A DNA stretch of 29,414 nucleotides, from positions 1-29,414 of IMG/VR virus record IMGVR_UViG_3300035681_000097; one strand, given 5' to 3'. The position numbers were made by a program, and so were the translations under genes. The notes under the pieces are model-generated. The model had not been told where the DNA came from, made no database searches, and saw only the letters and a list, made by a program, of their open reading frames with translations. The stretch comes from a virus. Every line of letters starts with the position of its first letter. Position 1 is the stretch's first letter. Positions 8,146 to 27,300 of the stretch are shown piece by piece.

Positions 8146-11145
8146 TTAAAAACCTCCACCTGCGCCACCGCCACCGAAAGTACCTCCACCAAATTGAACT
8201 TGTTTAGTACCATCAGGTACATTTGTTCCTTTAATTTTCTTTTCTACATTTTTAACAGGAACAGGACCTTGTGTTCCACCGGCAGCCGTTCCACCGGCAG
8301 CCGTTCCACCTGTTCCACCACTACCTTTGGCTGCATTATTTTGCTTATTACCATCCGATGTAGTATCTCTAGTTACAGCAGGTCTTACATCATTACTCAA
8401 TGAAGTACCAAAATCATACAATCTAGTAGTAGTACTTCTACTTTCTATAAATGTTACACCAATTGATGCGTTTAAAAACTTAGGTAATCTAAAACTTTTC
8501 ATACTATAGTTAACATCATTGTATCCTACTCTAGCCGTATCACCAGCATTATCTATAAGAAATCCTGTTTTAGTAATAGGGTCATATATTCTATTTTCAC
8601 CTTCTTTTATACCTTCATTCGTTCTTGCAATGGTAGTAAATGCTTGTCCAGAATTACTTATTACTTCTCCGCCTGGATTAGCTCTAAATTTTCCATTAAA
8701 TTCATAATCGTTATCATAATAATCAGAAACTCCGTATTTCATTTGTCCATCTCCCAGTTCCCAAAGATTTTCACTATCTTCAATTGAATAACTTAAACTA
8801 TCTAAGAAGCAAACTCTATTGTGGTATAAATCACCAAAAGTAAATTTAGCTAAATTAGGTAAAACTATTCCACCATCCGTATATCCTCCTGGATAATTAA
8901 AGTTAGCTAAGAATTCAATTTTTCTCCACATCATTGCCAATTCTATCGAAGACATCGCATACGCCTTAAGGTTAAATGTTACCTTTCTTTCTATTCCTGT
9001 ATAATTGTAAAAATTAAATGGTGACCCAATCATTTTACTATTTTCCCAAGATGGAGAAAATGTTTCATTAAATCCACTTACGATTGCTCTAAAATAAATT
9101 GTCTCACCACTGCCCATATTAGTAAAACGAAGTGGTATTAAATCAACCTCATCTATTGTTTTTCCATTATACTTTATAGAAGCCAATTCAGATACTGTAA
9201 ATACTCCTGTTTGATTTATCACATCTGATAATGTTTTCAATCCTCTTCTCGTTGAAAGTGAATCTGTGACATTTGATGTAGTGTCTGCTGAATTATTAAT
9301 TCTTGTTCTTAAACTAAATCTATCCTTCTGAGTTCTTTTTTTAGGTTGAATAAATCCTAATATTGGATTAGTTAATATTTTACTGGATACCAATGGCCCC
9401 GCTGCTGAACCAGACTGATATGGATTTGTAATTGTATTATACTGCTGTAATTTATCCGCAGTAGGTTCACCTTTCTTTTTATTTAAGTCTGTATCAGATA
9501 ATCTAAACGCAAAACCAGATACACCAAATACTCCTTGAGTTCTTTTCAATCCTTTTGTAGGAGAATTAAGTTCCCAAGGTTTGTTGATTAACATCTTGCT
9601 ACCTAATAAAACTGATGTAGATAGTGGGAATGGTGCGGTAGATGGTCCACTAAATCCTCCTTGCCTTTCATATGGGTTTACATTTGTATAAACAAATTCT
9701 AAATCCTTAATAGTAGGTTCTCCAAATTTTTTGTGATTAGTATTATCGGATAAACTAAATGCGAATTCTTTATTTAATCCAAATAGGCCACTCTGAAGAG
9801 CAGGATTAGCTATACCCCCTGCAGGTGAGTTTAATCCATAGGGTTTATTAAGTAACAATTTACTACCCAACGTAACTACGGTTTCTACTCTAAAATCAGG
9901 CATAGTAGATTGACCTGCAAAATTATTAAATGGACTATATGGATTTTCTCTAGTATATATCCCCAGTAAATCCGCTAATTTAGGTTCACCAAATCTTTGA
10001 TTTCTACTACCATCGGAAAGACTAAACGCATATTCAGTATCACCAAATCTTGCACTTTTTCTAGCTAACGCAGATGCATATGCTGAACCATCGGAAGGTG
10101 AATTTTTATCAAAAGAGTTTCTTAAAGAAGTAGGAACAGGACTTAAAAATCTACTACCATTATTTAATTCAGCTGATTCTACATTTGGTAATCCTTTTGT
10201 TCTTGCATTAGGATTGGATGATGTGTATTTATCCCCTATCCAATATCTATTATCCTGTAAGAATGCGGAAGTAGGTTCACCCTTTCTTCCGTTTAATCTC
10301 ATACCATAACTCTTTGTTCCTAAATCTCTACCATATATTTCACCTTTTCGTGTGAATCCCTTAATAGGTGATACCGCTGATATATCTAAATAATTTAGAG
10401 ATAAAGTTTGCGTATATGTACTCATTGAAGATTCATAGTTAGCAGTAGATGCATATTTTCCTACAAATCCATTATGATTTCCTTTTGATAATGATGCAAC
10501 CGTCTGACTTCCGAATAATGCAGTTCGTATTGCTCCCTGAGTAACTTTTAATCCACCTCCAATTATTTGTTTAGCTAATTGAGATGGAGTACCTCCACCA
10601 GTTTGCTTTAAGAATCTACCAAATGAAGTACCTGCTGCATCTTTCTTAATTTCACCAATAGTAATCATCGTATCAGGCTCTTTTCCCTTTTGAAGTTTAC
10701 CCGTATTGATTACATAAGTTGGATAAGTATCCTGAGGCAATCCTAATTTTTTAGTTACAAATCCTTCAACTTTTTTTAGTGCCCTTCCTATTAAACCATT
10801 GTTACCACCTTGTGTACCATTGTTGTTTATGCTATCTTTCATAGCCTGAACATCGTTGGTTTTTCTGGTAGTTAATCTGATAATATCAGTTCCATATAAT
10901 ATAGGAGATGATAGTAATCTAAGCGGTCTGATTCCACCAAATTCCTCCTCTAATAAAGTTTCCTTAGTTCTAAACCCTATTGTTTTTCTAATACCATTCA
11001 TTGCTTTAAATGGTAACCCCATAAGAGGATTATTCGATGAGATATTGATATCCTTACTATTACGGATATCATAAGTTTTCTCAGCAGTTTTTCCACTACT
11101 CTGAAGTTGTTTTGACCTGAATAATTCTTCTATCGTTTTTCCCAT
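8146..11145 (-). CDS. Large tail/baseplate structural protein with internal repeats and Gly-rich tail (999 aa)
   Basis: Start ATG 11145 overlaps the stop of the tape measure by one base (TAATG), implying translational coupling. Residues ~280-600 carry about four degenerate repeats of 85-97 residues. The shared elements are FxLSD, then GEPT, a YT..NPY motif, LLGSK.L.NKP and LNSP. Residues ~650-820 form a more conserved-looking domain: IPLRFTNMGSGETIYFRAIV, FSPSWENSKMIGSPF, YTGIERKVTFNLK, then MWRKIEFLANFNYPGG. I associate this arrangement with virion proteins of environmental T4-like phages, probably at the tail tip. The last ~60 residues are Gly/Ala/Thr-rich and end GGGTFGGGGAGGGF. No enzyme motif or membrane segment was recognised. 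A baseplate protein is the best guess from context. Confidence 0.7.
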   Translation of the reverse strand: MGKTIEELFRSKQLQSSGKTAEKTYDIRNSKDINISSNNPLMGLPFKAMNGIRKTIGFRTKETLLEEEFGGIRPLRLLSSPILYGTDIIRLTTRKTNDVQAMKDSINNNGTQGGNNGLIGRALKKVEGFVTKKLGLPQDTYPTYVINTGKLQKGKEPDTMITIGEIKKDAAGTSFGRFLKQTGGGTPSQLAKQIIGGGLKVTQGAIRTALFGSQTVASLSKGNHNGFVGKYASTANYESSMSTYTQTLSLNYLDISAVSPIKGFTRKGEIYGRDLGTKSYGMRLNGRKGEPTSAFLQDNRYWIGDKYTSSNPNARTKGLPNVESAELNNGSRFLSPVPTSLRNSFDKNSPSDGSAYASALARKSARFGDTEYAFSLSDGSRNQRFGEPKLADLLGIYTRENPYSPFNNFAGQSTMPDFRVETVVTLGSKLLLNKPYGLNSPAGGIANPALQSGLFGLNKEFAFSLSDNTNHKKFGEPTIKDLEFVYTNVNPYERQGGFSGPSTAPFPLSTSVLLGSKMLINKPWELNSPTKGLKRTQGVFGVSGFAFRLSDTDLNKKKGEPTADKLQQYNTITNPYQSGSAAGPLVSSKILTNPILGFIQPKKRTQKDRFSLRTRINNSADTTSNVTDSLSTRRGLKTLSDVINQTGVFTVSELASIKYNGKTIDEVDLIPLRFTNMGSGETIYFRAIVSGFNETFSPSWENSKMIGSPFNFYNYTGIERKVTFNLKAYAMSSIELAMMWRKIEFLANFNYPGGYTDGGIVLPNLAKFTFGDLYHNRVCFLDSLSYSIEDSENLWELGDGQMKYGVSDYYDNDYEFNGKFRANPGGEVISNSGQAFTTIARTNEGIKEGENRIYDPITKTGFLIDNAGDTARVGYNDVNYSMKSFRLPKFLNASIGVTFIESRSTTTRLYDFGTSLSNDVRPAVTRDTTSDGNKQNNAAKGSGGTGGTAAGGTAAGGTQGPVPVKNVEKKIKGTNVPDGTKQVQFGGGTFGGGGAGGGF
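8273..8310. repeat. Short tandem repeat, 15-base unit, about 2.5 copies
   Basis: The unit GTTCCACCGGCAGCC occurs at 8273-8287 and 8288-8302, then half of it again. It encodes the GGTAAGGTAAGG stretch of the Gly-rich C-terminal tail of the 999-residue protein. The exact repetition at DNA level suggests recent slippage and copy-number variation. Confidence 0.9.
9400..10310 (-). repeat. Three to four degenerate ~90-residue repeats inside the 999-residue protein
   Basis: The GEP codons recur near 10280, 9985, 9718 and 9466, giving spacings of about 295, 267 and 252 bases. Each unit continues with NPY, a Gly/Pro/Ser/Thr segment, LLGSK (or a variant), NKP and LNSP. The most downstream copy is the most degenerate. 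Confidence 0.75.
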
Positions 11146-14096
11146 TATGAAGTAATTGGATTTTTAGCAGCACCCCTACCAACTGCCGCTGTTACTTTTG
11201 CACCGTCCATATAAACATCTTTATTAGATAAATATGCTGCTTTCAATTCATCTAATTTTTGTATTATTAAATCATCTTTACTTTCTCCTCCACCTGCACT
11301 ATCACCACCAAATAAAGAACCCGCTACTGCACCAACTGCTCCTGCCACTAATAGTACAGGAATAGCCGCTGTTCCCATTGCCGCAACCATCGCTAATGAA
11401 TATGCTAATGCTGTAAATGCACCCGCCATTGCCAACACACCTACCGCAGCTTCTATATTCATAAGTGGTAATAATGCCGCCATCATATTTGTTATACTAC
11501 CTACGATAACTGATATACCACTTGCTATAGCCGTTATCACTCCTACTAAAACTTCTCCGATTGCTTTTACCAATGGAACTAATAAACTTAATCCAAATGC
11601 AAATATAGTAAATGCGGCTGCTAATGCTAAAATTACCGCAACTCCTAACCAACCTACAGTTCCAGCAGTTGAACCAAATCCTACTAAGGCCGGTCCCAAT
11701 AAATTTAATGCTGCCGCTGTTGGTATTGCTGCCGCTGCAAATAATGCCATACCAATCGCTCCTGGAATCATCAATGTAAATGCAATTGCTGCAGCACCCA
11801 CTGCTATAGAACCAGGAATAGTTGGAGCCATTTTATCCAATCCTTTCGCTAACAATCCTAATCCTATTCCGGCTGGCGCTGCAAATACTGATAACAATGC
11901 CATTCCTATTATACCAGGAATAATTAATATAAATCCTAATGATGCTACTGCTAATGCTAATGAACCCATCATCACAGAGCCATCACCCATTTTTTTCAAT
12001 CCTTTTGCCAATTCACCTAATCCTTTACCAGCACTATCAGCAAATTTAGAAACTCCCCACATACCTATTAAACCAGGAGTTAATAATAAAAATCCTATTC
12101 CCGTTGGTATTAAGTTTAAAGCTCCCTTAAGAACTTTAGTATCACCCATTGCCTTCAATCCTTTTGATAAATCTTTAAGTTTATCACCCATTGATTTATC
12201 CTTATTAACTGCATCAGTTGCTCCTTCGACACCTTCAGGTGAGGTTACTGAATCTATTTTACTATCAACCAAATCCTCTGCTTTTTCGGATGCCTTATCC
12301 TGAACTTTATCTGTTATACTATCTTGTACTTTATCTACTACTTTATCTTTTGCACTATCTATTACATCACTTGCAGGACTTTTGCCACCTGTTACCATTC
12401 CCCACACCTTCTGTGCCCCTGCCACTACTAATCCCTTAACCATATCCCACACCTTAGATACAACTCCACCGAACATACCATCAAATGCCTTTATACCCCC
12501 ACCTAACTGACCCATTAATATAATAGCCTTTCCTATAGCACCAATGAATCCACCTCCGAATTCATTTACTATCGCACTTATACCTTCCTTCATTGTACTA
12601 AACTCTTCGGTCAAAGTACCGGCATTTTCAGCGATATTCTGCTGATTCATATACATCTTTTCCAATTCCGCTACACTTATTCCTAATGCTGCGGCAGCTG
12701 CATCTTTCTGATACGCATCCATTTTATCCCACTCAGCCTTATCACCCAATTGTCTAAGTATTTCAGACATTGCCTCCTCTTGCTTACCCATATAAAATAA
12801 CTCTCTTGCTCTACTTAAATTCAAGTCCCTACCTAACATTGCACTAGCTTCTAATTCTTTTTCAATTGAAGTTTCGAAATCTAATAATGTGTCTGCTATT
12901 TTAGCAGTAGTTGCAAAAGTTACACCTAATTGTCTAGCTTGTATAGCTGCGTTCTTAATGTTATCTCCACTTCCTTTTGCATATTTTGCAAACGCTTCTC
13001 CGTTAGCCGCTAAATCTTTCATTACTGCTGATGGTAAAACACCTCTTAATTTTGCGGTAGCCTGAAGTGATTTAAGCATATTAGCTGCTTGCTCTGAAGT
13101 CGAACCTCTCATTTTACCAAACTCTGATGTTAAATATGCTGCCTCAGTACCACTTATACCCATATTATTTGCAATCAAATTGGTATTCAATTGAGTACCA
13201 AATGATGCTTCACCCATATCACCTAAATTTTCAGCTAATCCTTCTGCTACTTGTTGAGATTCTTTAAATCCCATTCCTAATACTCCAGCTGATGCAGTAA
13301 ATCCATTAATCTCTTGACCTACCATTCCAAATGCCTTTTGCATTTCAAACACCTTACCAACAACTTTACCTACTCCAACTATGAGTAATCCAATTGCCAA
13401 TGATGGTTTCTTCAATGCAGCAGTTATTTGATTAGCAACTGCATTTAATCTACCTTTCATTTCATCTACTTCCTTAGTTAACTCTTTATATGCGGCTACC
13501 TCATCATCGGTTAACCCATTCATTATCTCAAGTTCACGATTCGCCTTTTCTAAGTTTTTATTGAAATCACCTACTATACTACCTAATTCTCTGTTCCCTT
13601 CTATCAAATCTTGATTTGACTTTACAAAACTTATATAGTCTTTTCGAATATTTACTAAATTGTCTGCCGCGGCTATCTGTTCTTCTTTAGTACCGGATGC
13701 TGCAGATAAAACATCTCTTTGTGCTTCTGCTACTTTGTACGCTTTTTGTGCAAATTGTTCGGCGAACTCTATATCAGCTGGGTCAGTTAAACTAACCTGA
13801 ACCTTACTTAATGATTTAAGTTGTCTATCCATTGAAGTGAACGACTTACCTAACTCAGTAGTTGCTCTTTCCGATATAGATATCTGAGATGCTAAATCAC
13901 TAAAATCGGAAACAGTGGTTTTTATACCTTTTGCTTTGTTAATATAGGCTTCGGTTTTACTAATCTTTTCTTGCAAATCCGCAATAGCAGCCGCATCACC
14001 CCTTTGTTGAGCAGCAGCTAGGTCCTCCTGTTGTTTGGCTAAATTTTCGGTTGCCTTAGCTTCGGCGTTGATTAGTTTTATTTTTTCCCCTGCCAT
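11145..14096 (-). CDS. Tail tape measure protein (983 aa)
   Basis: This starts at ATG 14096. The first ~230 residues are Lys/Glu/Ala-rich and predicted coiled coil. A mid-part contains GMGFKESQQVAEGLAENLGD and other helical segments. A Lys/Asp/Ser-rich stretch follows (VIDSAKDKVVDKVQDSITDK). From about residue 655 to 920 come long hydrophobic Ala/Gly/Ile/Leu segments with many potential membrane helices. This architecture of coiled coil followed by hydrophobic helices is that of tape measure proteins, which set tail length and may help DNA cross the inner membrane. T4 gp29 is 590 residues, so this predicts a longer tail if length scales in the usual way. It sits after the gp26/gp51-like pair, as in tape measure loci generally. 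Confidence 0.9.
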   Translation of the reverse strand: MAGEKIKLINAEAKATENLAKQQEDLAAAQQRGDAAAIADLQEKISKTEAYINKAKGIKTTVSDFSDLASQISISERATTELGKSFTSMDRQLKSLSKVQVSLTDPADIEFAEQFAQKAYKVAEAQRDVLSAASGTKEEQIAAADNLVNIRKDYISFVKSNQDLIEGNRELGSIVGDFNKNLEKANRELEIMNGLTDDEVAAYKELTKEVDEMKGRLNAVANQITAALKKPSLAIGLLIVGVGKVVGKVFEMQKAFGMVGQEINGFTASAGVLGMGFKESQQVAEGLAENLGDMGEASFGTQLNTNLIANNMGISGTEAAYLTSEFGKMRGSTSEQAANMLKSLQATAKLRGVLPSAVMKDLAANGEAFAKYAKGSGDNIKNAAIQARQLGVTFATTAKIADTLLDFETSIEKELEASAMLGRDLNLSRARELFYMGKQEEAMSEILRQLGDKAEWDKMDAYQKDAAAAALGISVAELEKMYMNQQNIAENAGTLTEEFSTMKEGISAIVNEFGGGFIGAIGKAIILMGQLGGGIKAFDGMFGGVVSKVWDMVKGLVVAGAQKVWGMVTGGKSPASDVIDSAKDKVVDKVQDSITDKVQDKASEKAEDLVDSKIDSVTSPEGVEGATDAVNKDKSMGDKLKDLSKGLKAMGDTKVLKGALNLIPTGIGFLLLTPGLIGMWGVSKFADSAGKGLGELAKGLKKMGDGSVMMGSLALAVASLGFILIIPGIIGMALLSVFAAPAGIGLGLLAKGLDKMAPTIPGSIAVGAAAIAFTLMIPGAIGMALFAAAAIPTAAALNLLGPALVGFGSTAGTVGWLGVAVILALAAAFTIFAFGLSLLVPLVKAIGEVLVGVITAIASGISVIVGSITNMMAALLPLMNIEAAVGVLAMAGAFTALAYSLAMVAAMGTAAIPVLLVAGAVGAVAGSLFGGDSAGGGESKDDLIIQKLDELKAAYLSNKDVYMDGAKVTAAVGRGAAKNPITS
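11720..12125 (-). repeat. Hydrophobic ~51-residue repeats in the tape measure
   Basis: LLLTPGLIGM, LIIPGIIGMAL and LMIPGAIGMAL recur near 12065, 11912 and 11758, a period of about 153 bases. Between them lie Gly-rich helices with KGL.KMGD-type loops. Each unit could form a hydrophobic hairpin followed by an amphipathic linker. Confidence 0.75.
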
Positions 14097-14102
14097 TTAT
14101 TA

Positions 14103-14300
14103 CTACTTCTTCTTATTAATTTTATCTAATACTTTCTGCAAATCAGCTAAAGAATCACTTGTATCTCTAAGTGCTTTAGCTAATTCAGGATTTCTTTCTG
14201 CTGATTTTTCTATGAAATACTTATCTAATCCTCTTTTATAGGAGTCTATAAAGCTATCTACGAATTTGTTAAGAATTCCTTCTTTAATAGGTTGTTTCAT
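14103..14300 (-). CDS. Small helical phage protein before the tape measure (65 aa)
   Basis: This starts at ATG 14300 and ends six bases before the tape measure ATG. The protein is almost all helix and strongly charged: MKQPIKEGILNKFVDSFIDS at the start and LADLQKVLDKINKKK at the end. It has no membrane segment and no recognised domain. A promoter-like motif lies 21 bases upstream, just after a terminator, so it probably heads the tape measure transcript. A chaperone or tail-tip accessory role is possible. Confidence 0.75.
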   Translation of the reverse strand: MKQPIKEGILNKFVDSFIDSYKRGLDKYFIEKSAERNPELAKALRDTSDSLADLQKVLDKINKKK

Positions 14301-14370: not shown

Positions 14371-14667
14371 CTATCTCATCCTTACTTTTGAAGAACCACC
14401 TGAAGGAACTTTTGTTTTCCTATTGGCTCTATCATATTCTTCTTTTTCTTTTTTCTTTAAGTCAATTAACTTCTTAAGGTAAAACCTTCTCCAGTGAATT
14501 GGCATCGTATATACATCTTTCCAAGTAAACCCATTACCATATTGAACCAAACTCCAAATTTCTTCGTGAAGTTGGGTAGAGTAATTAGTTGGAAGGGTAA
14601 AAAAAGCTAACCCCAAATGGGATATCAAGTGCCTCCGTCTCACCAGTAATATCAGATGTAAATTCAA
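14371..14667 (-). CDS. gp51-like protein frame, probably expressed by +1/-2 frameshift from the gp26-like gene
   Basis: The open frame spans 14667-14371 but begins at a TTG inside the preceding gene. There is no ATG before the one in YTMPIHWRRFYLKKL, which sits inside the conserved-looking part. The sequence QLHEEIWSLVQYGNGFTW plus MPIHWRRFYLKKLIDLKK resembles the gp51 baseplate hub assembly proteins of T4-like phages as I recall them; gene 51 also follows gene 26 in T4. About 75 residues lie after the T7 run at 14599-14605, so a frameshift product would be about 324 residues. The C terminus is basic (VPSGGSSKVRMR). Frames upstream of the T7 run (LVRRRHLISHLG) look like non-coding shadow. Alternative: initiation at GTG or TTG within the overlap. 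Confidence 0.72.
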   Translation of the reverse strand: MNLHLILLVRRRHLISHLGLAFFTLPTNYSTQLHEEIWSLVQYGNGFTWKDVYTMPIHWRRFYLKKLIDLKKKEKEEYDRANRKTKVPSGGSSKVRMR

Positions 14668-15346
14668 ATTTTAAATCCAAATCGGGTGCAAAATCTCTAA
14701 TATGTGCTCTTAATGCTCTGCTATCCTGAGCTAACAATTGATTAGTTACCCAATTATTAATGAATCCTCTTTCAGTATTACCTTCGACTTCCACTATCAT
14801 TTTTCGTAATCTAGTTGTAACTTCAACCGGATTAGTACCTTTGGATAACTTATCTAATGCCGCTACTTCAGCCTGAACATCTTTTTCATCCTTATGTGAT
14901 AATAATTTGAATTTAATCTTTTTACCAGATTGAGGTAAAGTAAATTCATATTTATTATCTCTTTTTAATAGAGAATAATCAATATCCTTTGTTTTAACCT
15001 TCGCTAAATCAATTGTTACTTGTTGTCTCTCACCGCTAAATGGGTCAGATACCTCTACTTGATAAGCCGCTCCATATCCTAAAATACGAGTTGCTAACAT
15101 AATAGCGTTCTTATCACCTGTAACTAAATCATCGATTGATGCATCTACTACTACAGATTCTAATAACTTATCTAATACTATACCTTTTTTGATTAGGTTT
15201 TGTGAAGAAAGAATATCTTCTTCCTTTGCGGTCATATACTTTATCGTAACTTGTCCGCTCGCCAATGGATGTCCCTCAGGGTAACACTTTCCTTCTGATG
15301 GTAATGATATAACCTCAGTTGGGAATTCATAATTTTTGTCTGCCAT
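14585..15346 (-). CDS. T4 gp26-like baseplate protein (PF12322 family), possible tail assembly chaperone
   Basis: This 253-residue protein starts at ATG 15346. It has the signatures I know from the T4_baseplate/gp26 family of marine T4-like phages: LPSEGKCYPEGHPLASG, then KYMTAKEEDILSSQNLIKKG, LDKLLESVV and GDKNAIMLATRILGYG. A beta-rich centre and a C-terminal domain (RAHIRDFAPDLDLKFEF, DITGETEALDIPFGVSFF) follow. It sits between the tube and tape measure genes, the usual place of tail assembly chaperones such as lambda G/GT. It ends at TAA 14585 a few codons after a T7 run, and a gp51-like frame continues in +1. It is preceded by a promoter-like motif and a terminator. Confidence 0.82.
   Translation of the reverse strand: MADKNYEFPTEVISLPSEGKCYPEGHPLASGQVTIKYMTAKEEDILSSQNLIKKGIVLDKLLESVVVDASIDDLVTGDKNAIMLATRILGYGAAYQVEVSDPFSGERQQVTIDLAKVKTKDIDYSLLKRDNKYEFTLPQSGKKIKFKLLSHKDEKDVQAEVAALDKLSKGTNPVEVTTRLRKMIVEVEGNTERGFINNWVTNQLLAQDSRALRAHIRDFAPDLDLKFEFTSDITGETEALDIPFGVSFFYPSN
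14599..14605 (-). other. Candidate slippery site for programmed frameshift (T7 run)
   Basis: In gene sense the region reads AGC TTT TTT TAC CCT in the zero frame. Phe tRNA on TTT could slip +1 or -2 on the T7 run and continue ACC CTT CCA in the gp51-like frame. The zero-frame stop TAA follows four codons later. I saw no obvious strong downstream hairpin. Confidence 0.6.
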
Positions 15347-15448: not shown

Positions 15449-15940
15449 TTAGAATTCTAAGATTGCGTAATCGTAAGTTAAAGTAATTTCGATTGATGCA
15501 GGGTCTGTAGCATTACTCCAATCCAAGTCACCGAAGTTAGCTTGAGAGATAAATGCTCCTTTTAATTTCCATTGTTCAATCTTATCACCTACTGGACCTA
15601 ACATATAGAAATCCACATCCTTCTTATAGAATTCTGCGTATCCATCTCTACCTGTTAATGATTCATGTGATGTTCTAATCCACTCCATTACCGCTTGAGC
15701 TCCAGAAGGAACAATTGGGTCAAATAGCGTAAGTGCTACATCTTGCCAATCTCCTTTACCTTTCAACTTTCTTTTTACGTTGATGTGGTCTAATACTACT
15801 GTCTCAAATTGGATAGTAGGTCTGTTAGCTACTCTCACTAAATATGAAGGGATACCATCGATTTCAACGATGAATCTATTCTTCATCTTTGGTTCGAAAT
15901 TGGTATAAAACATTTCGTTAAATTCTAATACGTCTGCCAT
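15449..15940 (-). CDS. Tail tube protein (T4 gp19-like)
   Basis: This 163-residue protein starts at ATG 15940 and matches T4 gp19 (163 residues) in length. The opening MADVLEFNEMFYTNFEPKMK leads to NRFIVEIDGIPSYLVR, then PTIQFETVVLDHINVKRKLKG and WQDVALTLFDPI. The end PASIEITLTYDYAILEF is the typical final beta strand. Tube monomers stack as hexamers inside the sheath to form the DNA channel. The gene directly follows the sheath gene (38-base gap) with its own promoter-like motif and terminator, as fits a highly expressed structural gene. Confidence 0.95.
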   Translation of the reverse strand: MADVLEFNEMFYTNFEPKMKNRFIVEIDGIPSYLVRVANRPTIQFETVVLDHINVKRKLKGKGDWQDVALTLFDPIVPSGAQAVMEWIRTSHESLTGRDGYAEFYKKDVDFYMLGPVGDKIEQWKLKGAFISQANFGDLDWSNATDPASIEITLTYDYAILEF

Positions 15941-15978: not shown

Positions 15979-18459
15979 TTATACACTAAAAGTTGCTCCA
16001 GTCGGTAAGATATTGAAATCAATTACGATGAATTCAGCAGTCTTAGCAGGTTGTAAAAACACAGAACCTTGTAATATGTTTCTGTCGATTACATCTGGTG
16101 TATTATTTGTTTCATCCATAACCACTCTAAATGCGTATAAACCTTGTCTTTGTTGAACACTCTCCAAATAAGGATTTACAGTATTTAAGAATTTAGCTCT
16201 TGTCTGTCCGGTGTTTTGTTCGAACACTAAGAATCTTGAAGTAGATGCAACGAACTTCTTTAAGTTAATTAACAATCTTCTTACGTTGATTCTATCTAAT
16301 GCAGATGAACTTTCTTGTAATGTTTTCTGTCCGAATGCACTAATACCTTGTCCAGGAAATGCCGCAATTGGATTTACCTTTCCTTCATATAATGTATCTC
16401 TTTCAGATTGAGTTAATCTATTCATCACTTGAACAGCTCCCTGAATACCACCTCTGTTTAAACCAGCTGGTGCAAACCATTCAGCACCTAATCTATCATT
16501 CTGTGCGTATGTACCAACTAATAAAGTTGATGGTGGAACTGCAACAATTTTATTTGTTATAGTATCAATTGTTTTAACCCAAGGGTAATAAGTTGCAGTA
16601 TAGTTAGAATCAACTAATGATGCTTGCTCTACTACATCTGTTATCGAACCATCTGCTCCAACAAAGTCAGCAATGTAGAATACATCTTCTCTTGCTTCAC
16701 AAAGGTCAATTGCTTTTGTTGTTACAAAAGGATGTAAACTTCTAACGATACCAGGAGTTACTAATAAATTTATATCAAATTCATCTGGATTAGAAACAGC
16801 GTTTAATGCTTTTGTATAAGCTTTAGTACCAGCAGTTGTAGATAAACTACAATTAAATCCTTGTGTATTAGTTGCAGTAATCTGTTCTCCTTTTAAGATA
16901 TCAACAGTTGGGTCAACACCTGCATATCCACCTTGAAATGCCAAACAGAAATTTCTTTTTGCAGTATCAATATATTCTCTAGCTGCTCCACTTCCTGCTC
17001 CTGCTGCAACCGCAGTTATTACATTACCTACAGCCGCAGTATATCCTGCTATACCTGTAACGGTAGCCCAGTTAGTACTTCCAACAGTAGTGATTACATA
17101 TGAACTACCACTTACAAAATTTTCGTCAGCAATAATATCACCGGTTAAATTTGCACTTAATCCTACACCATTTGCAGATAAAGCGTTATCTAAAGCGAAC
17201 CCTACATTTAATCCTACTCCATCATTGTTAACTGGAAGAGCTTTTAAATAATTTTTATTATTTTTAGCAGATTTTGCACTCGTATCTCCAAATTCAAACC
17301 CACTTGAATTAGTACCATTCGTAGATGCGTTTGTATATTTTACTACAGGAAAGTAATTAGCGTGTGTAGCAGATGTAAACGCAACTGGAACCGTATAAGC
17401 AGCAAATCCAAAAGGAATAGCCGTTATTGGATATGTACCCTCTGGTCTAACTTCTATTCTAATATATTTACTTTTATTAGAATAATCACCATTTTCGGTG
17501 ATTTTACCAACCGAATCAATTGTTAGATATCTATCACCAATTCTTCTAGATATAAAATTAGGAGAAGTTGGGTCTAAATTTAAATTATTATAAGTTTCTA
17601 AAATTACCTTTCTTTTATCGGTATCGTTAAAATCTCGTATTGTTAAAGTAAATGTTCCGTAATTAGTACCATCAGATGATTTTACATTAGAAATTTGAAT
17701 TTTATATCTAGTATTTTCATTTTCACCAACTGATAAAGTGTGTACTTTAAATAGATTATATCTACTAGTTCCGTTAAATATTTGCGATTGTACAAAAGGA
17801 GTTGCCGCAGTTTTATATGCAGACTCACTATCATCTGTAAAATTCTGTACATCTAATGCTAATCTTTCAACTGCAGCAATATTATTTGGATTGAAATTGT
17901 TTGAGGTAGCATCACTTACATCGAAAAATATGTTAGCGTACATATCTTTTTCAGAAGCAGGTGTAGTTCCTAATACCTTATCCAAAGAATTTTTATCAGA
18001 TGGGGTAAGTGATACTGTATAGTTTGTTCCATCTAAAGTTATTATCGGAGCACTTACCGTAGTATCATCAATAGTAGATACCGTAGCGGTTGCAGTTTCA
18101 GTATTTTCTAATACAGCTACGATAATATTATCACCATCTCCATCTTGTGCTACTACAGCAACAGTTCCATCTGAACCTCCTGCTAAAGTAGTATGTCCAT
18201 CTGTACCTGCTACTCTAACAACAGTTACCGAACCGGCATCTCTTAAATAATTTTGTACTGTATAACCTGTGTAATAATCTTTCGGTGTTCCGAAGATTTG
18301 TTCGTATTCAGCTTGTGACGTTACTAACGTAGGAACGAAAGCAGGTCCCTTTTCTGTAGGGCCTACAACAGCTGCACCTATTTGTGATATACCTTGTGGT
18401 AAGAAAGAAAGGTCGTTTTCTCTCGTAAATACACCAGGTGATACAATTTTCTCTGCCAT
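15979..18459 (-). CDS. Contractile tail sheath protein (T4 gp18-like, 826 aa)
   Basis: The start is ATG 18459. The N terminus MAEKIVSPGVFTRENDLSFL and the segment IGAAVVGPTEKGPAFVPTLV, with YTVQNYLRDAGSVTVVRVAG, are typical of gp18-like sheaths. The C-terminal third is also typical: YYPWVKTID, VPPSTLLVGTYAQNDR, WFAPAGLNRG, then RRLLINLKKFV, a mobile TNNTPDVIDRN segment and LQPAKTAEFIVIDFNILP. Sheath proteins polymerise around the tube and contract to drive injection. At 826 residues it is longer than T4 gp18 (659). The extra length is in the middle (about residues 90-500), beta-rich and Thr/Ser/Asn-rich, and probably surface exposed. It includes a small repeat-like unit near residues 445-495. 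Confidence 0.95.
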   Translation of the reverse strand: MAEKIVSPGVFTRENDLSFLPQGISQIGAAVVGPTEKGPAFVPTLVTSQAEYEQIFGTPKDYYTGYTVQNYLRDAGSVTVVRVAGTDGHTTLAGGSDGTVAVVAQDGDGDNIIVAVLENTETATATVSTIDDTTVSAPIITLDGTNYTVSLTPSDKNSLDKVLGTTPASEKDMYANIFFDVSDATSNNFNPNNIAAVERLALDVQNFTDDSESAYKTAATPFVQSQIFNGTSRYNLFKVHTLSVGENENTRYKIQISNVKSSDGTNYGTFTLTIRDFNDTDKRKVILETYNNLNLDPTSPNFISRRIGDRYLTIDSVGKITENGDYSNKSKYIRIEVRPEGTYPITAIPFGFAAYTVPVAFTSATHANYFPVVKYTNASTNGTNSSGFEFGDTSAKSAKNNKNYLKALPVNNDGVGLNVGFALDNALSANGVGLSANLTGDIIADENFVSGSSYVITTVGSTNWATVTGIAGYTAAVGNVITAVAAGAGSGAAREYIDTAKRNFCLAFQGGYAGVDPTVDILKGEQITATNTQGFNCSLSTTAGTKAYTKALNAVSNPDEFDINLLVTPGIVRSLHPFVTTKAIDLCEAREDVFYIADFVGADGSITDVVEQASLVDSNYTATYYPWVKTIDTITNKIVAVPPSTLLVGTYAQNDRLGAEWFAPAGLNRGGIQGAVQVMNRLTQSERDTLYEGKVNPIAAFPGQGISAFGQKTLQESSSALDRINVRRLLINLKKFVASTSRFLVFEQNTGQTRAKFLNTVNPYLESVQQRQGLYAFRVVMDETNNTPDVIDRNILQGSVFLQPAKTAEFIVIDFNILPTGATFSV
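16975..17125 (-). other. Small Gly/Thr-rich domain inserted in the tail sheath
   Basis: Residues ~445-495 read FVSGSSYVITTVGSTNWATV, then VGNVITAVAAGAGSGAA. The pattern GxxYxIxxxGxTxWxxV...VGxxxTAxxxGxGxG is one I recall as a free-standing unit in many phage virion proteins. In the sheath it would decorate the outer surface. Its binding target is unknown. Confidence 0.55.
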
Positions 18460-19016: not shown

Positions 19017-20315
19017 TTATCCTGTTGCAGTTGAACCGAATCCACTTTGTAATCCTGCAAAATTTGTTTTAGCTCTTGCAAAAATAGTAGCTCCAGTTTT
19101 ATAGTTTAATGTATTAGAACTATATGCAGCAAAAGTTGCTAATATAGAACTAAATCCACTATCAGATGCTATCTGTATATCATAAGAATAGTTTGCAGTA
19201 ATCGCTGTTGAACCAGGTGAAACTACCGCTGAGTTTGTACTCAAAGTTAATTGTTTGTATGTATTTCCTCCAATAGTTACCGTACCAATTGATATAGTTG
19301 GGTTAGTTGATATAGAATACCCCGCTAATGAGTTTGCACCCTTATTGTGGGTAACGAATCCATTTACTATGTATGTATCCACATCTTCCACATCTATCGA
19401 TACAACCTCTAATGTCGATGCCTGAACCTCGTTCGCAATTATCTCTACTTCTTCTATACTATTTTCTCCTAATACTTTTATAAGTTTATCTCCAGGTTGT
19501 AATAATCCTAATGGTTTAAATTTATAAACTTCTTCATTCATATCCCAAACCATCATTGGATGTTCACCATTTCCCCTAACATCTCCTTTTGCAGTTCTTA
19601 CAATATTCCATCTATCAACAAATGTATATGCCACATCTTTTACATAAGCAGGAACTAATATTCCTCCTGGTGTATAATATTCCCAATCGTAAAAGTTAAA
19701 ATCATCCGCTGCGTTGAAGTGAGGAGGGTAATATGCTTTTACAACATCTTCTTCAACCAAATCCCCTGCTTTCTTAAATGTACCATCCCACATCTCAACC
19801 ATTTCATCTAAATGTAAACATAAACCACTAGCTCCGGCATAATCATCTACATTGTAAATGGTTTTTGTCATAGCTACGTTATAGTTTGAAGCATGGTCAT
19901 TATAAAGGTCTCTAAATGTTGCAGTTAAGGTTCTTGCAGTTGGTGCAGCTAAAGTAGATGAGTTACCTACAGCCGCAGCAGTTACAGATGGATTATATGG
20001 AGGTAGAGATTGAATTGTAAACTCTGCCCCCGCTGATAAACTCCATGTGAAGTTATTATATTGTGAACCTACTCTACTTAAGAATCTACTTCCCGCATTT
20101 GTAAAGTTCATATTATATGTTTCCGAAGTTGATTCCTTTACATAAGTGAATCCAGATATAGTTGAAGTTACCGCATCTATTGTAAAATCCGAAAATGCAA
20201 TTGGACCGGTTGTTGTGCCTGCCGCAGTAGCAATAGAATAGTTAGAAGTAGCCGTATTACCTGTCGCTGCTTTTAAATTCGATAATTCTAAATTGTCTCC
20301 CTGAACTCTAGGCAT
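19017..20315 (-). CDS. Virion-type protein with embedded Hint (intein/hedgehog-type) domain (432 aa)
   Basis: Start ATG 20315 overlaps the stop of the glycosyltransferase-like gene by eight bases. Residues 1-165 are Thr/Ser/Ala-rich beta structure (MPRVQGDNLELSNLKAATGN start), like phage fibre or decoration proteins. Residues 166-324 form a Hint domain: CLHLDEMVEMWDGTFKKAGD with Cys 166 first, RGNGEHPMMVWD with His 252 (TxxH-like block B), QPGDKLIKV, and a final block VDTYIVNGFVTHN ending His-Asn 323-324. The residue after the Asn is Lys, not Cys, Ser or Thr. Residues 325-432 are again a beta-rich virion-like domain. No homing endonuclease fits in the 159 residues, so it is a mini-intein or BIL-like element. 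The missing +1 nucleophile predicts cleavage rather than classic splicing. Confidence 0.82.
   Translation of the reverse strand: MPRVQGDNLELSNLKAATGNTATSNYSIATAAGTTTGPIAFSDFTIDAVTSTISGFTYVKESTSETYNMNFTNAGSRFLSRVGSQYNNFTWSLSAGAEFTIQSLPPYNPSVTAAAVGNSSTLAAPTARTLTATFRDLYNDHASNYNVAMTKTIYNVDDYAGASGLCLHLDEMVEMWDGTFKKAGDLVEEDVVKAYYPPHFNAADDFNFYDWEYYTPGGILVPAYVKDVAYTFVDRWNIVRTAKGDVRGNGEHPMMVWDMNEEVYKFKPLGLLQPGDKLIKVLGENSIEEVEIIANEVQASTLEVVSIDVEDVDTYIVNGFVTHNKGANSLAGYSISTNPTISIGTVTIGGNTYKQLTLSTNSAVVSPGSTAITANYSYDIQIASDSGFSSILATFAAYSSNTLNYKTGATIFARAKTNFAGLQSGFGSTATG
19344..19820 (-). other. Hint domain (intein-like, BIL-type candidate)
   Basis: Cys 166 to Asn 324 of the host protein. Block A has the Cys-x4-Glu pattern followed by WDGTFKKAGDL, block B has GEHPM, and block G has VTHN. 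The segment YYTPGGILVPAYVKDV in the middle is not endonuclease-like. Codon use looks the same as in the flanking parts, so it is not obviously recent. Confidence 0.82.
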
Positions 20316-21322: not shown

Positions 21323-24300
21323 TTATAACCCTCTTGCTCTTTTTAAATTTTCTACTTCTGATTTTAAGTTATCGATTTGTACTTGCTGCTCTTTCATACC
21401 TTCGATAAGAAGTGCAACTAACTTATCATACTTAACCGCTTTATATCCACTTTCTCTCGTCTGAACTAATTCTGGAAGTATCTCCTCAATTTCTTGTGCG
21501 ATAACACCCACATCATGTCCTTCGTGTCCATGTAATTCAACGTTTGAAATCCAATCAAATTCGTATCCACCTATTTTTAATACCTTAGCTAATGCGTTTG
21601 GTATATTTTTGATATTCTCTTTAAATCTTCTATCAGATGAAGAGTAAGCTACGATATCGTTTGCCGCATCTATTCTACCACTTGTACCACTTGCATTAAC
21701 ACCAATTCCTAAAGAACCAAATCTCACGTTTGATGTAGTAGCAATATCCTGTGGTAATGTTAATGATGCAGTAAATGCTCCCGTTGCAGTTACACCACCT
21801 ACAGTAATCTGATTAGCAGTTCCTGTTATGTTACTTGCTCTAGATAATGTTGGGATAACTAATGTCGCAACACCGGTTGATGGATTGATTGATACCTCAC
21901 CACTAACCCAGTTAGCAACAGTTACTCTAGCTCCATTAGTAAAGTGTGTAGAACCGGTATTCAATGAAACAGCATCAGCCGCTACCGAAATACCATCTCC
22001 TGCTCCTACCGCTAAAGTATGAGCCACACCTTCACCACTCGTTGCTCCACCGGTTAAACCAGCTCCAGGATTAATAGTAGCTACATAATCTCCTGTCGTA
22101 TCAGTTCCTAATGCAACTGAATTCGCTTGAATTGTAGCAGTACCATTGGATGCAATTAATACATCTCCTTTGATATATGATACAACCGCTTGCTGAGAAC
22201 CTGATTGGAAGTGAACTGATTGTGTATCAATTGTAAGTGTTGTATCAGTTTGGTTACGGAATACTGAACCACTCATACCACTACCCGCTATTACATTAAA
22301 TTGTAAATCTCCTTTGTGTAGAGTTGCGCTTACTTCTCCCCTAAAGTTAGAAGCCGATGCACTTACAAATCCACTTGCGCTCATATGGAGAGATGCAGTT
22401 ACCGAACCAGTTACTCTTAAGTTATTAGAGAACCATGCAGTAGAACCTGTTATAGGTCCAAAGAATGATGAAGAACCATACGCACCTTCGCCCTCTATTC
22501 TCAATCCACTAGCAGTTATTACACCACTCGCAGAAATACTATTGTTAAATGTAGCTAATCCGTCTAATATTGAATTACCCGTTGCTCTGAAGTTTCCGTT
22601 TGATTGGATACCTGCTCCTGATATTGAATTACTAGCTGAAATCGTACTTCTAAATGTAGCCGCACCTATAGTTAATTGAGTTCCATCAAATTGAACATTT
22701 GATAATGCTCTAATTTCACCTGCTGACCAAACACCACTACCTGTGATACCCTTACTTGCAGAGATGTATTCTTTACCACTTATGTTTCCAACTACTTCTA
22801 ATGCCCCACTTATGTTTGTAGCGTTTTGTACAAATAATGCAGATGCACTAATTGTATTACTTGCAGATACTGCACCTCTTATCGAAGTTGCACCTTCTAC
22901 AAATAATGCTCCACCACTAATGTTTCCACTAGCAGATATGTGATTAAATGATGCTGTTTGTGCTACTATTATTGTAGATGAAGTAATTGCTCCGTTTACA
23001 AACAATCCACTACCTAATCTCATATTAGTTTCAGCATTCGACCATGAGAAGAATACGTTAGCACCACTTATGAATAAACCTGCTCCGTTTGCAGCAACCG
23101 ATGTAGTTGAACCACTAGCGATTTCAATTAAACGGTCTTCAATTTTTAAATCTGAAATTTGAAGTTGAGTCGTTGTACCCAATACATTCAAGTCACCTTG
23201 TATAGTTGTTACAGATGAAACTCCTGTTCCTGCAACGGTTATAGCATTTTTTAATGAAGATGAATATACTTCTAATGCACCGGTTGCCTGATTAACTTGA
23301 TTTCTAAATGTTACTAAGTTGATACCATTTATCGTACTTGCATTGAAATCACCATTTACGGTAAAGTTCTTATCTAAGTACATATATTGTTCAGGATGGT
23401 CCCAATAGAAATTAACATTAGCACCACTTATGAATAAACCAGCTTTATCTGATTGTGCAGAAGTTGTAGAGCCACTATTTATTTCAATTTGCTTATCCTT
23501 AACTTGTAATCTATCAACTCTTAATTCACCTAATGTACCTCTAACTTGTAAGTTATTGAATACAATTAAATCACCATTACTTTCAGATATTGCACTTCTT
23601 AATGATGAAGTATATGCGTTTATTGATGAAGAGAATGTATTTTGTGCCGGTGCGAATTGTCTAATTAAAGTTCCATCAACAGTTCCTCTTACTTCAATAT
23701 TGTTATCAGAGTAAAGTGTATCAGAGAAATTTAAACTTTGAGAAGCGTGCGACCAAGTTACATATGCATCAGCACCACTAATGTAGAAACCTGCTCCATC
23801 TGCCGCCGCTGAGTTCAATGAACCACTTGCGATTTCGATGAATTTATCTACTATCTTAACATCACCAACTTCTAACAATACTTTAGAACCGGTTACTCTT
23901 AACGTACCATGTACTATTAAATCGTTTCCGTTTGTATTAATAGCTTGTTTTAATGAAGCAGAATATGAGTTTAATCCACTCAATGCCAAATTAGTAGAAG
24001 CAGTGAATTGGTTAACCGAACCAGAGTATTCAAATCCGTATTCTCTAACTTGTATAGAAGAACTTACTACTTGTTCATAATTTATTTTTTTCTTAACACC
24101 TTCTTCAAAGTGTAAAGATTGTGTTGCAATTTTTACAGTAGCCGATGCACTACCATTATAGTTAAAGTAATCAAATCCACCTGCATCACCACCGGTAATA
24201 GCAAATGCCAAATCAGCAGCTCCAGTAAATGAACCTGTGAATGAACCGGTTAAAAATCCGTTTCCACTAAATGAACCTGTTGCACTTAATGAGTTAAATA

Positions 24301-27300
24301 CTGATAATGATGTTCCTTGAACAGAACCCGTCAATCTACCACCGATAGAACCGGTTACTAACAAATCATTTGTCATTCTCACTACGATTCCGTTATCGGT
24401 CATCGTAGAAGATGTTAAGTTAGTAGATGTATATTGAATCTTAGGTACAGTTCCTTCCGGTAATCCAATTTCGTTTCCGTATAATCCTCCGTTAACAGGT
24501 CCTCCAATCAATACAGATGAAGAGAAACCATCATTCTGAGCCATTACCCAGTTATCATCTACACCATCATAGAATAATGATGCGGATGCGTACACATTAT
24601 TCGGAGGAGTTCCGCCTACTATAGAACCTGAATCATATACTATAAATCCACCAAATCTAACAACAGGTGAACTTGCTCTTACCGCAATTGTATTTTCACC
24701 AATATCTAAGTTAGATGCGGTGATTGCAGTAATAGTTGTACTACCCTTTACATCAAAGTTACCATAGATTGTTAAGTTACCTGATATTTGAGCGTTTTTA
24801 GCAACACCCAAACCTCCACTAACTACTAATGCTCCCGCATACCAATCATTTGATTGTATTTCACTACCTATTACAGTTCTTTCTAATTCATATGAAGCAA
24901 TCGCCCCAGTTAATGATTGAGAAACCGCTGCACCACCATCACCACCATACCATATCCAATCTTTTGGAAGATTAGGTAATTGGAAATAAGTTCCAGGATG
25001 TTCTACTAATAATTCACCATCGTTAATATTGATTCTACCTACTACAGCGATGTTCTGTACATAGAATGAGCCCGTAGGTAATTGAGTTGTTAATCCTCCA
25101 TTAGGTCCAACGTATAGTTGTTGCCCAGATGTTAATGCAGTTGTATCATAGTTTGTTAAGATACCCAATGCAGTTAATGAACCCGAACCACTTTCTAATA
25201 AATTATCCGCTGATAAACCAACGGCTGGCATTTTATCTAATCTAGATGAAGAAGCCGGTCCAACTATTGTTAAACCCGTTCCAACATCAAATCCTTTTAT
25301 ATATAATGGAGTACCTTTTGCAATCGGTCCACCATTTCCTATGTTTACAATTCCAATTGAAGTTCTATCTGTGAAACCAAAGAAGATTCCACCTGCTCCA
25401 TCACTTCTTAAAATTTTACCTACACCCTGTGCATCACTATTTGGATATCTTAATCCACTTGCGGTGAAAGGTGCTTGTATATTTGCATATTTGAATACAT
25501 CTAATCCACCACTTAATATAGTCGAACCACTTACAGATAAGTTTCCACTTACCTCAACCGTCTGCCCTAAGTTTGTAGAATTTAAGATGAATAGGTTTCC
25601 ACTAATTCTAGTATCTAATTTGATATCAACGTTACCACTAACAGTCAAATTACCACTTACAATTTGATTACCCTTAAATGTGTTTGAACCGGTTGTCGCA
25701 GATGTAGCCAATAAGAATCTAACTGATTCACTAACACTCTGAGAGAATGCAGTAAATTGAGCTCCATCTGTAGATTGTGATGCTTGATTACCAAATACAA
25801 CTTGAATAGGAGTTCCATTTCCACCACTCAATCCATTTCCAACCATAGAAGTAGATATTTCTAACGCAGTTAATGAATGTGTTACTATTAAATCTGCTCC
25901 TAATGAACGGGATACAATTTTAGAACCACTTAATGTGTTAGTTGCAATTGTATCGATTGTATTTCTAAATTGAGTTGCATATGCTACACTACCACTCTTA
26001 GCTAATACTTGATTATCAGTACCATTTGCTGCAATAGTTCTAGTATCAACATATGTTTTAACCGCTTGTTGTGATGGAACGGTATCTCTTCCAGGTAAAC
26101 CTTGTGAGTTTAATAAAGTTTCGTTATCAGATGCCTCATTAATCACAATACCCACCGGTACACCATTTCTTCTGAACGGTCCAATTGAAGATAAACCTGA
26201 TAATGAGAACTGATTTGCATCAATTGTTACAGCACCTGTCAATTGGTCTACTCTAAAGAATCTACCAACTTTTAAGTTACCTCTGTTATCAATTGTTACC
26301 GCAAATACTTTTCCAGGTTCAATCATCACAACTTCTTGTGTTGAATCTGGAATACCACCATACTCAGGAATAGCATTATAAGTAATACCCGCACCAACGT
26401 ACTCTAATACAAGACCTCCAGTTGATATGTTTGATAATTGGAAGAAATTAGCATTATCTCCTGCGTTTACGAAAAATACTGCAGGGAATGTTTCAACAAA
26501 GAATTCATCCGGTTCTACGGTTGTATTGATATCTGTTACTAAGTAATCCGAACCATTTAACTTCATCAAAGAAGAGAAGTCAATATTTCTTTGTTGTCCC
26601 TGAAATGAACCAGTTACTCTTACAAAGATATTAGCCAAACCACTTAATACCGCAGTAGCTTCTGCTCTCACTCCACCAGGAGTATCAGGTAAAGCAATAG
26701 AAACAGATGGTATAGATGTATAACCACTACCACTACTTTCTAAGTTTAATGCTACAACTTGTCCCTGTGTAATCAATGCAGAACCACTTGCTCCACTACC
26801 TCCTCCACCACTAATTGTAACAACCGGTGATACGGTGTATCCACTACCAGGATTTGTCACATTAAAACCAGCAACGGTTGAAGTACCCGCTGATAATACT
26901 AATGCACTTGTATATGTGTCTTTAAAGTTTCTTTTTGATACAACCCCCTGAAGACCGAAGTCAATTACAGAGTTTGAAATGTTCGCAAATCCACCACCTG
27001 ATGTTTTAAATCCGAATGTAGAGAATGTGGTAAACATAGATACGAATTGAGCGTATCCTGTATTACAAACGTGGTGTCCAGGTCCTCCCTGATTAACCTG
27101 CGTAAACGCTGCGGCTACCATTGAACGAAGTGGAGAACGAGGTGATGCTTCTCTACAACAATTACCATCCACTCTCATACCACCACCGGCACCAGTACTA
27201 TCTACACCTAAATCTTCAATATCATATGGAAGTGGAATTAATGCAGAAATCTTTTCACCATTAAAATTAAATGGTCCTGATATAGCAGTTGAGTTCCACA

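Follow-up and report, generated by a model that had tools for sequence, protein, structure and literature searches.

The window, the whole stretch of viral DNA that we analysed, comprises 29,414 nucleotides (IMG/VR virus record IMGVR_UViG_3300035681_000097, positions 1 to 29,414). On its minus strand, a tail sheath gene (15979-18459; phrog_23, E = 2e-70; PF04984, E = 2.5e-11) sets the gene-order context and is followed by a tail tube gene (15449-15940; phrog_4542, E = 2.1e-27; PF06841, E = 5.3e-8), by two overlapping frames that we call TAC-N and TAC-C, and by the gene for a tape measure protein (11145-14096). The last is a 983-aa ORF, the downstream partner by gene order, which matched the protein annotated as tape measure in Flavobacterium phage immuto (BLASTP, E = 4e-32). 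An earlier reading made from the letters and open reading frames alone (hereafter the sequence-only reading) had located the pair between the tube and tape measure genes; the tube profile match and the immuto match bear this out, and it is the position expected of a tail assembly chaperone (TAC) pair.

TAC-N (14585-15346, minus strand) is the zero-frame ORF, a candidate short tail assembly chaperone of 253 aa that runs from an ATG at 15346 to a C-terminus ending in ...GVSFFYPSN. It matched phrog_150 (E = 1.8e-12) and PF12322 (E = 1.4e-8, 35.1 bits against a curated cut-off of 24.5). T4 gp26 (E = 8.8e-64) and T4 gp51 (E = 3.9e-52) match the same PF12322 model over its whole length, so that gp51 can be described as a longer version of gp26, and TAC-N is homologous to gp26 and to the N-terminal ~200 residues of gp51.

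The end of TAC-N reads AGC TTT TTT TAC CCT TCC AAC TAA. The run of seven T within it (T7, minus strand, 14605-14599; phase AGC TTT TTT TAC) is separated by four sense codons from the zero-frame stop (TAA, 14585-14587) that ends the short product, exactly at the coordinates and at the distance from the stop that the sequence-only reading had given. The +1 frame, TAC-C (14371-14598, minus strand; ACC CTT CCA ... stop), continues for 71 aa to its stop at 14371 as a putative C-terminal extension, and the joined product would have 324 aa under a +1 slip or 325 aa under a -2 slip. No ATG precedes the conserved part of this second frame, again as first noted: its only upstream starts are TTG, GTG, TTG and TTG at -80, -56, -41 and -29, counted relative to the zero-frame stop, all of them within the first gene. 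By itself T7 is not rare: this AT-rich window has ten such runs when both strands are counted. The A-site codon is TAC in the window and TGG in many relatives, an RF2-type stop codon in the A site being absent, and a search for stimulatory RNA structure upstream or downstream of the slip site gave no consistent signal (mean z -0.6).

Several other minus-strand features of the window deserve mention in their own right. A 65-aa ORF lies between TAC-C and the tape measure gene (14103-14300), with a weak match to phrog_7012 (E = 0.013) and a small ORF at the same place in Mel-JY01. The tail sheath protein, at 826 aa, is long compared with the ~500-aa phrog_23 profile, which suggests inserted domains. 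By eye, a 432-aa ORF (19017-20315), seemingly a structural protein, has an intein- or Hint-like stretch in mid-protein (LCLHLDEMVEMWDG...NGFVTHNKG), and the C-terminus of a 2635-aa fibre-like protein (21323-29230) resembles an intramolecular chaperone of the peptidase S74 type.

Conservation of the junction

The junction recurs in related contigs. Exact T7, in the same phase and with an open +1 frame, was found in 80/80 first-round IMG/VR relatives, which form 27 clusters at 90% identity; the chance of TTT TTT in all 27 clusters from Phe codon use alone is about 10^-6.6. With immuto, LR756508 and isolate relatives added (182 loci in 74 clusters at 90% identity), the +1 frame was open beyond the zero-frame stop in all 182 loci and at least 61 aa long in 178/178 loci whose frame is not cut by the locus end. 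A search for relatives in a bacterial genome collection found none.

The two frames are under similar constraint, with dN/dS of 0.10 for TAC-N and 0.107 for TAC-C (130 pairs). Judged by these ratios, TAC-C evolves like a protein, and purifying selection is acting on both frames. TAC-C homology starts at the FF of the slip site and follows the pattern FF[TG]L..Y...LH..I.....GN.GF.W..VY.MP...R.FY.

Homopolymers are a known source of sequencing error, and the two frames could in principle be one real ORF split by a miscalled run, or a pseudogene. We regard this as scarcely credible, since the same T7 and phase occur in 124 loci from many metagenomes and since the isolate genomes immuto, SP-15 and GXN1 keep the frame relation without a homopolymer of that length. 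For the window contig itself, an error in T-run length, which the sequence-only reading had raised, is ruled out by the conserved T7 and frame relation of the relatives.

It could also be that no frameshift takes place and that TAC-C is a separate small protein translated from one of the internal TTG or GTG codons of TAC-N listed above. Such codons are present in the window, two relatives (L291 and L296, discussed below) have an ATG for TAC-C, and the annotation of Mel-JY01 gives two overlapping genes. However, 22 of the 74 clusters contain no ATG, GTG or TTG in the +1 frame, so independent initiation is unavailable to those clusters, and 16 clusters have a +1-frame stop immediately ahead of the slip site, within 20-26 bases of the zero-frame stop. 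The positions of start-like codons in the +1 frame are not conserved among relatives, against a homology that extends from the slip site onward. Separate initiation is, in our estimate, most improbable.

Direction of the slip

In the phase found in the window, T7 allows a slip of +1 or -2, and both reach the same frame. A -2 ribosomal frameshift of the kind known in Mu (PMC5009743) would carry tRNA-Phe from T4-T6 of the run back to T2-T4 and insert one extra Phe, and T7 offers perfect -2 re-pairing at one position. We compared these options with the homologous sites of relatives, which read GGC TTC TTT TGG in L281-L290, TTT CTA TGG in L211, L222 and L233, TTC TTT CGT in GXN1, TTT CTA TTC in LR756508 and TTT CTT TGG in immuto-type relatives. 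All frameshift members of the clade that we examined allow +1 re-pairing (TTT_T, TTT_C or CTT_T); the LIS04 site (T6A) does so perfectly at the first Phe codon only. In contrast, -2 re-pairing is possible on T7 but finds no acceptable pairing in L281-L290, in L211, L222 and L233, in GXN1 or in LR756508. Because the sites of several relatives leave a -2 slip nothing to pair with, +1 is favoured over -2. The sequence-only reading had proposed that a +1 or -2 slip joins the frames: the joining frameshift stands, whereas its -2 option is disfavoured by these sites and appears very unlikely. A -1 slip finds no in-phase heptamer (T_TTT_TTY) in the T7 loci, and the -1 frame is not conserved there.

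Slippage might instead occur during transcription, with RNA polymerase dropping one U or adding two in U7 and so producing mixed mRNAs. Recoding by transcriptional slippage is well documented (PMC5009743), and a seven-T homopolymer in AT-rich phages is consistent with it. Yet many clade members have no homopolymer (TTTCTTT, TTTCTAT), with a run of just four T in TTCTTTTGG; the T run does not exceed 7 and has no T in front of it in any member, a pattern contrary to the one that selection for polymerase slippage would produce; and the sister clade has a tRNA-type -1 heptamer at the same codons. We therefore consider polymerase slippage highly improbable. The variant sites TTC TTT TGG and TTT CTA TGG argue against both -2 and transcriptional slippage, leaving +1 ribosomal frameshifting at the Phe codons as the best-supported reading of the compared sites.

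The base preceding the run adds to this picture. Before T7 it is C, G or A, with T in 0/46 clusters (log10 P -15.1 when codon use by amino acid is allowed for), whereas in the -1 clade T precedes the run in 35/35 clusters (log10 P -7.1); since related phages are not independent but their clusters were counted as if they were, these values overstate the strength of the effect. Avoidance of T before T7 is expected if a -1 heptamer, T_TTT_TTT, must be kept out. As far as such comparisons can tell, nothing signals more strongly that the direction of the slip matters than the opposite selection acting on this one base.

The -1 arrangement itself is seen in relatives of cyanophage S-PM2, where xxT TTT TTC (T_TTT_TTC, the canonical -1 heptamer) occurs in 80/80 loci and the -1 frame is open for 55-64 aa. 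A single PF12322 copy with a -1 extension is found in S-PM2, P-SSM2, HTVC008M (heptamer T_TTT_TTT), phiM12 and the jumbo phage Atu_ph07, compared with two PF12322 matches in T4 and two or more in Campylobacter phage CPX. The group of jumbo phage LR756511 is also of the -1 kind. The jumbo phages L087 and L301-L303 carry their TAC extension in the -1 frame; an in-phase T_TTT_TTC heptamer is present in L087, and the zero frame runs well past the site before a stop.

Relationship to T4 gp51

We used profile comparisons to relate the joined products to T4 gp51. The +1 product against the -1 product gave 96.7% over 287 columns, and the -1 product against T4 gp51, including its C-terminus, gave 98.0% over 189 columns, with shuffled controls at no more than 6.5%. 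The TAC-C profile of the +1 clade was not significant against gp51 directly (0.2%), and the link from TAC-C to gp51 runs in two steps via the -1 clade (93%, then 95-96%). By this two-step link the +1 ORF corresponds to the last ~45 residues of gp51 only. The second ORF had been described as a gp51-like protein, which does not hold: gp26 and gp51 are both full-length PF12322 proteins, and the ORF represents only the C-terminal tail of gp51. On the evidence of the profiles, the gp51 equivalent is the predicted frameshift product, not the +1 ORF alone.

For the fused protein, AlphaFold2 returned a model with a mean pLDDT of 80 and a pTM of 0.69, in which the N-terminal part is mixed alpha/beta and the extension helical. 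Searched against a viral structure library, the model matched T4-like baseplate hub proteins and their relatives (down to E = 3e-20). A fold search of the PDB with the same model gave nothing significant, and a PDB sequence search gave no match; against the HK97 chaperone 2ob9, the model scored an E of about 5 with a TM of 0.49 over the target, which is not significant.

In a tree of TAC-N, the four states require 3 changes, the fewest possible, compared with 15.5 in shuffles. Setting aside an own-ATG pair nested among them, the +1 members fall into one group; the tree is unrooted, and some long branches make deep placements unsure. The nested pair is L291 and L296, in which no usable shift exists and TAC-C is a separate ORF whose ATG closely follows the TAC-N stop. 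Their own-ATG TAC-C runs from L291:2218 and L296:2215 onward and has a new N-terminal segment. Relatives of this type, which the sequence-only reading had set against a frameshift, do exist, but they are nested in the +1 clade, next to immuto, and look like a secondary loss of the frameshift. Frameshifting is reportedly kept in several T4-like groups.

Discussion

Taken together, the evidence points to a single gene from which a T4-like contractile-tailed phage probably makes both its short and its long tail assembly chaperone by means of a +1 slip, a reading to which we assign a probability of roughly 85%. Overlapping frames, a conserved site, purifying selection, gene order and homology to gp26/gp51 all come from sequence comparison. 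We infer that ribosomes slip here by +1, how efficiently they do so, and that the products act as chaperones. Most ribosomes would read AGC TTT TTT TAC CCT TCC AAC TAA and release TAC-N (253 aa). In a minority, tRNA-Phe in the P site on TTT would slip +1 onto the next T, skipping one base, after which the ribosome would read ACC CTT CCA... and add a predicted 75-residue helical C-terminal domain, giving a TAC-NC of about 324 aa. By analogy with lambda G/GT, many copies of TAC-N and few of TAC-NC may form a coat around the tape measure protein, with tube subunits perhaps recruited, as in lambda, by the C-terminal domain of TAC-NC.

This arrangement can be compared with several known systems. 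Like the window, T4 gp26/gp51 form a short and long pair of the PF12322 family, but T4 uses two full genes, 26 and 51, in place of a +1 shift on an in-phase T7. Lambda gpG/gpGT likewise lie between the tube and tape measure genes and share an N-terminus between a short and a long product; lambda, however, slips -1, and we found no sequence relation of the window to gpG/gpGT. Phage Mu has the same net frame and a contractile tail but shifts -2, for which relatives of the window have sites that do not permit such a slip. The bacterial prfB (RF2) gene (+1, CUU UGA C) also involves a +1 slip in the P site, and the immuto site TTT CTT TGG contains CTT T, but prfB has a stop codon in the A site and the window has none. 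The PF12322 genes of cyanophages and pelagiphages (S-PM2, P-SSM2, HTVC008M) are present as a single copy, slip at the same Phe-Phe pair and carry a homologous C-terminal extension; in these phages the slip is -1 with T required before the run, whereas in the clade of the window it is, on our reading, +1 with T excluded.

Parts of this picture are already known. Tail chaperones are well known to use programmed frameshifts of -1, -2 or +1, with T4 named as an exception in a 2016 review (PMC5009743). The suggestion that gp26 and gp51 belong among the tail assembly chaperones holds, but it had been reported before (Vladimirov, Gautam and Davidson 2022, Virology 566:9, as cited in PMC10885494 and PMC12846349). 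In the passages citing that study, PMC10885494 describes T4-like phages with one short and one long fusion gene and no shift, and PMC12846349 describes T4-like phages whose TAC-N genes carry poly-T -1 signals. Tail chaperone frameshifting and the gp26/gp51 assignment are accordingly not new here.

The chaperone goes under the wrong name, baseplate hub, in public genomes of this group, where its C-terminal domain is truncated or absent from the annotation. TAC-N is annotated as 'baseplate hub' or hypothetical in L082, L083, L086, L088 and L089. TAC-C is annotated from an internal start or as a separate hypothetical gene in four of these (L082:5351-5461; L086:5309-5428; L089:5201-5377; L083:5237-5473) and is omitted from the public annotation of LIS04 (L088).

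The new element is a large homologous series that allows the direction of the slip to be compared base by base across -1, +1 and no-shift lineages; what sets the direction of a frameshift therefore becomes testable with one gene. Our tentative preference, on balance, is for a history in which one Phe-Phe pair has been tuned to -1 in one T4-like group and to +1 in another, with opposite selection on the base before the run; gene duplication in the T4 group, and in a small lineage a C-terminal gene with its own start, would later have taken the place of frameshifting. In literature other than the site list of Vladimirov et al. 2022, we found no description of a switch of direction at one codon pair. 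If true, the direction of a programmed frameshift would have changed at one site in a way that can be traced.
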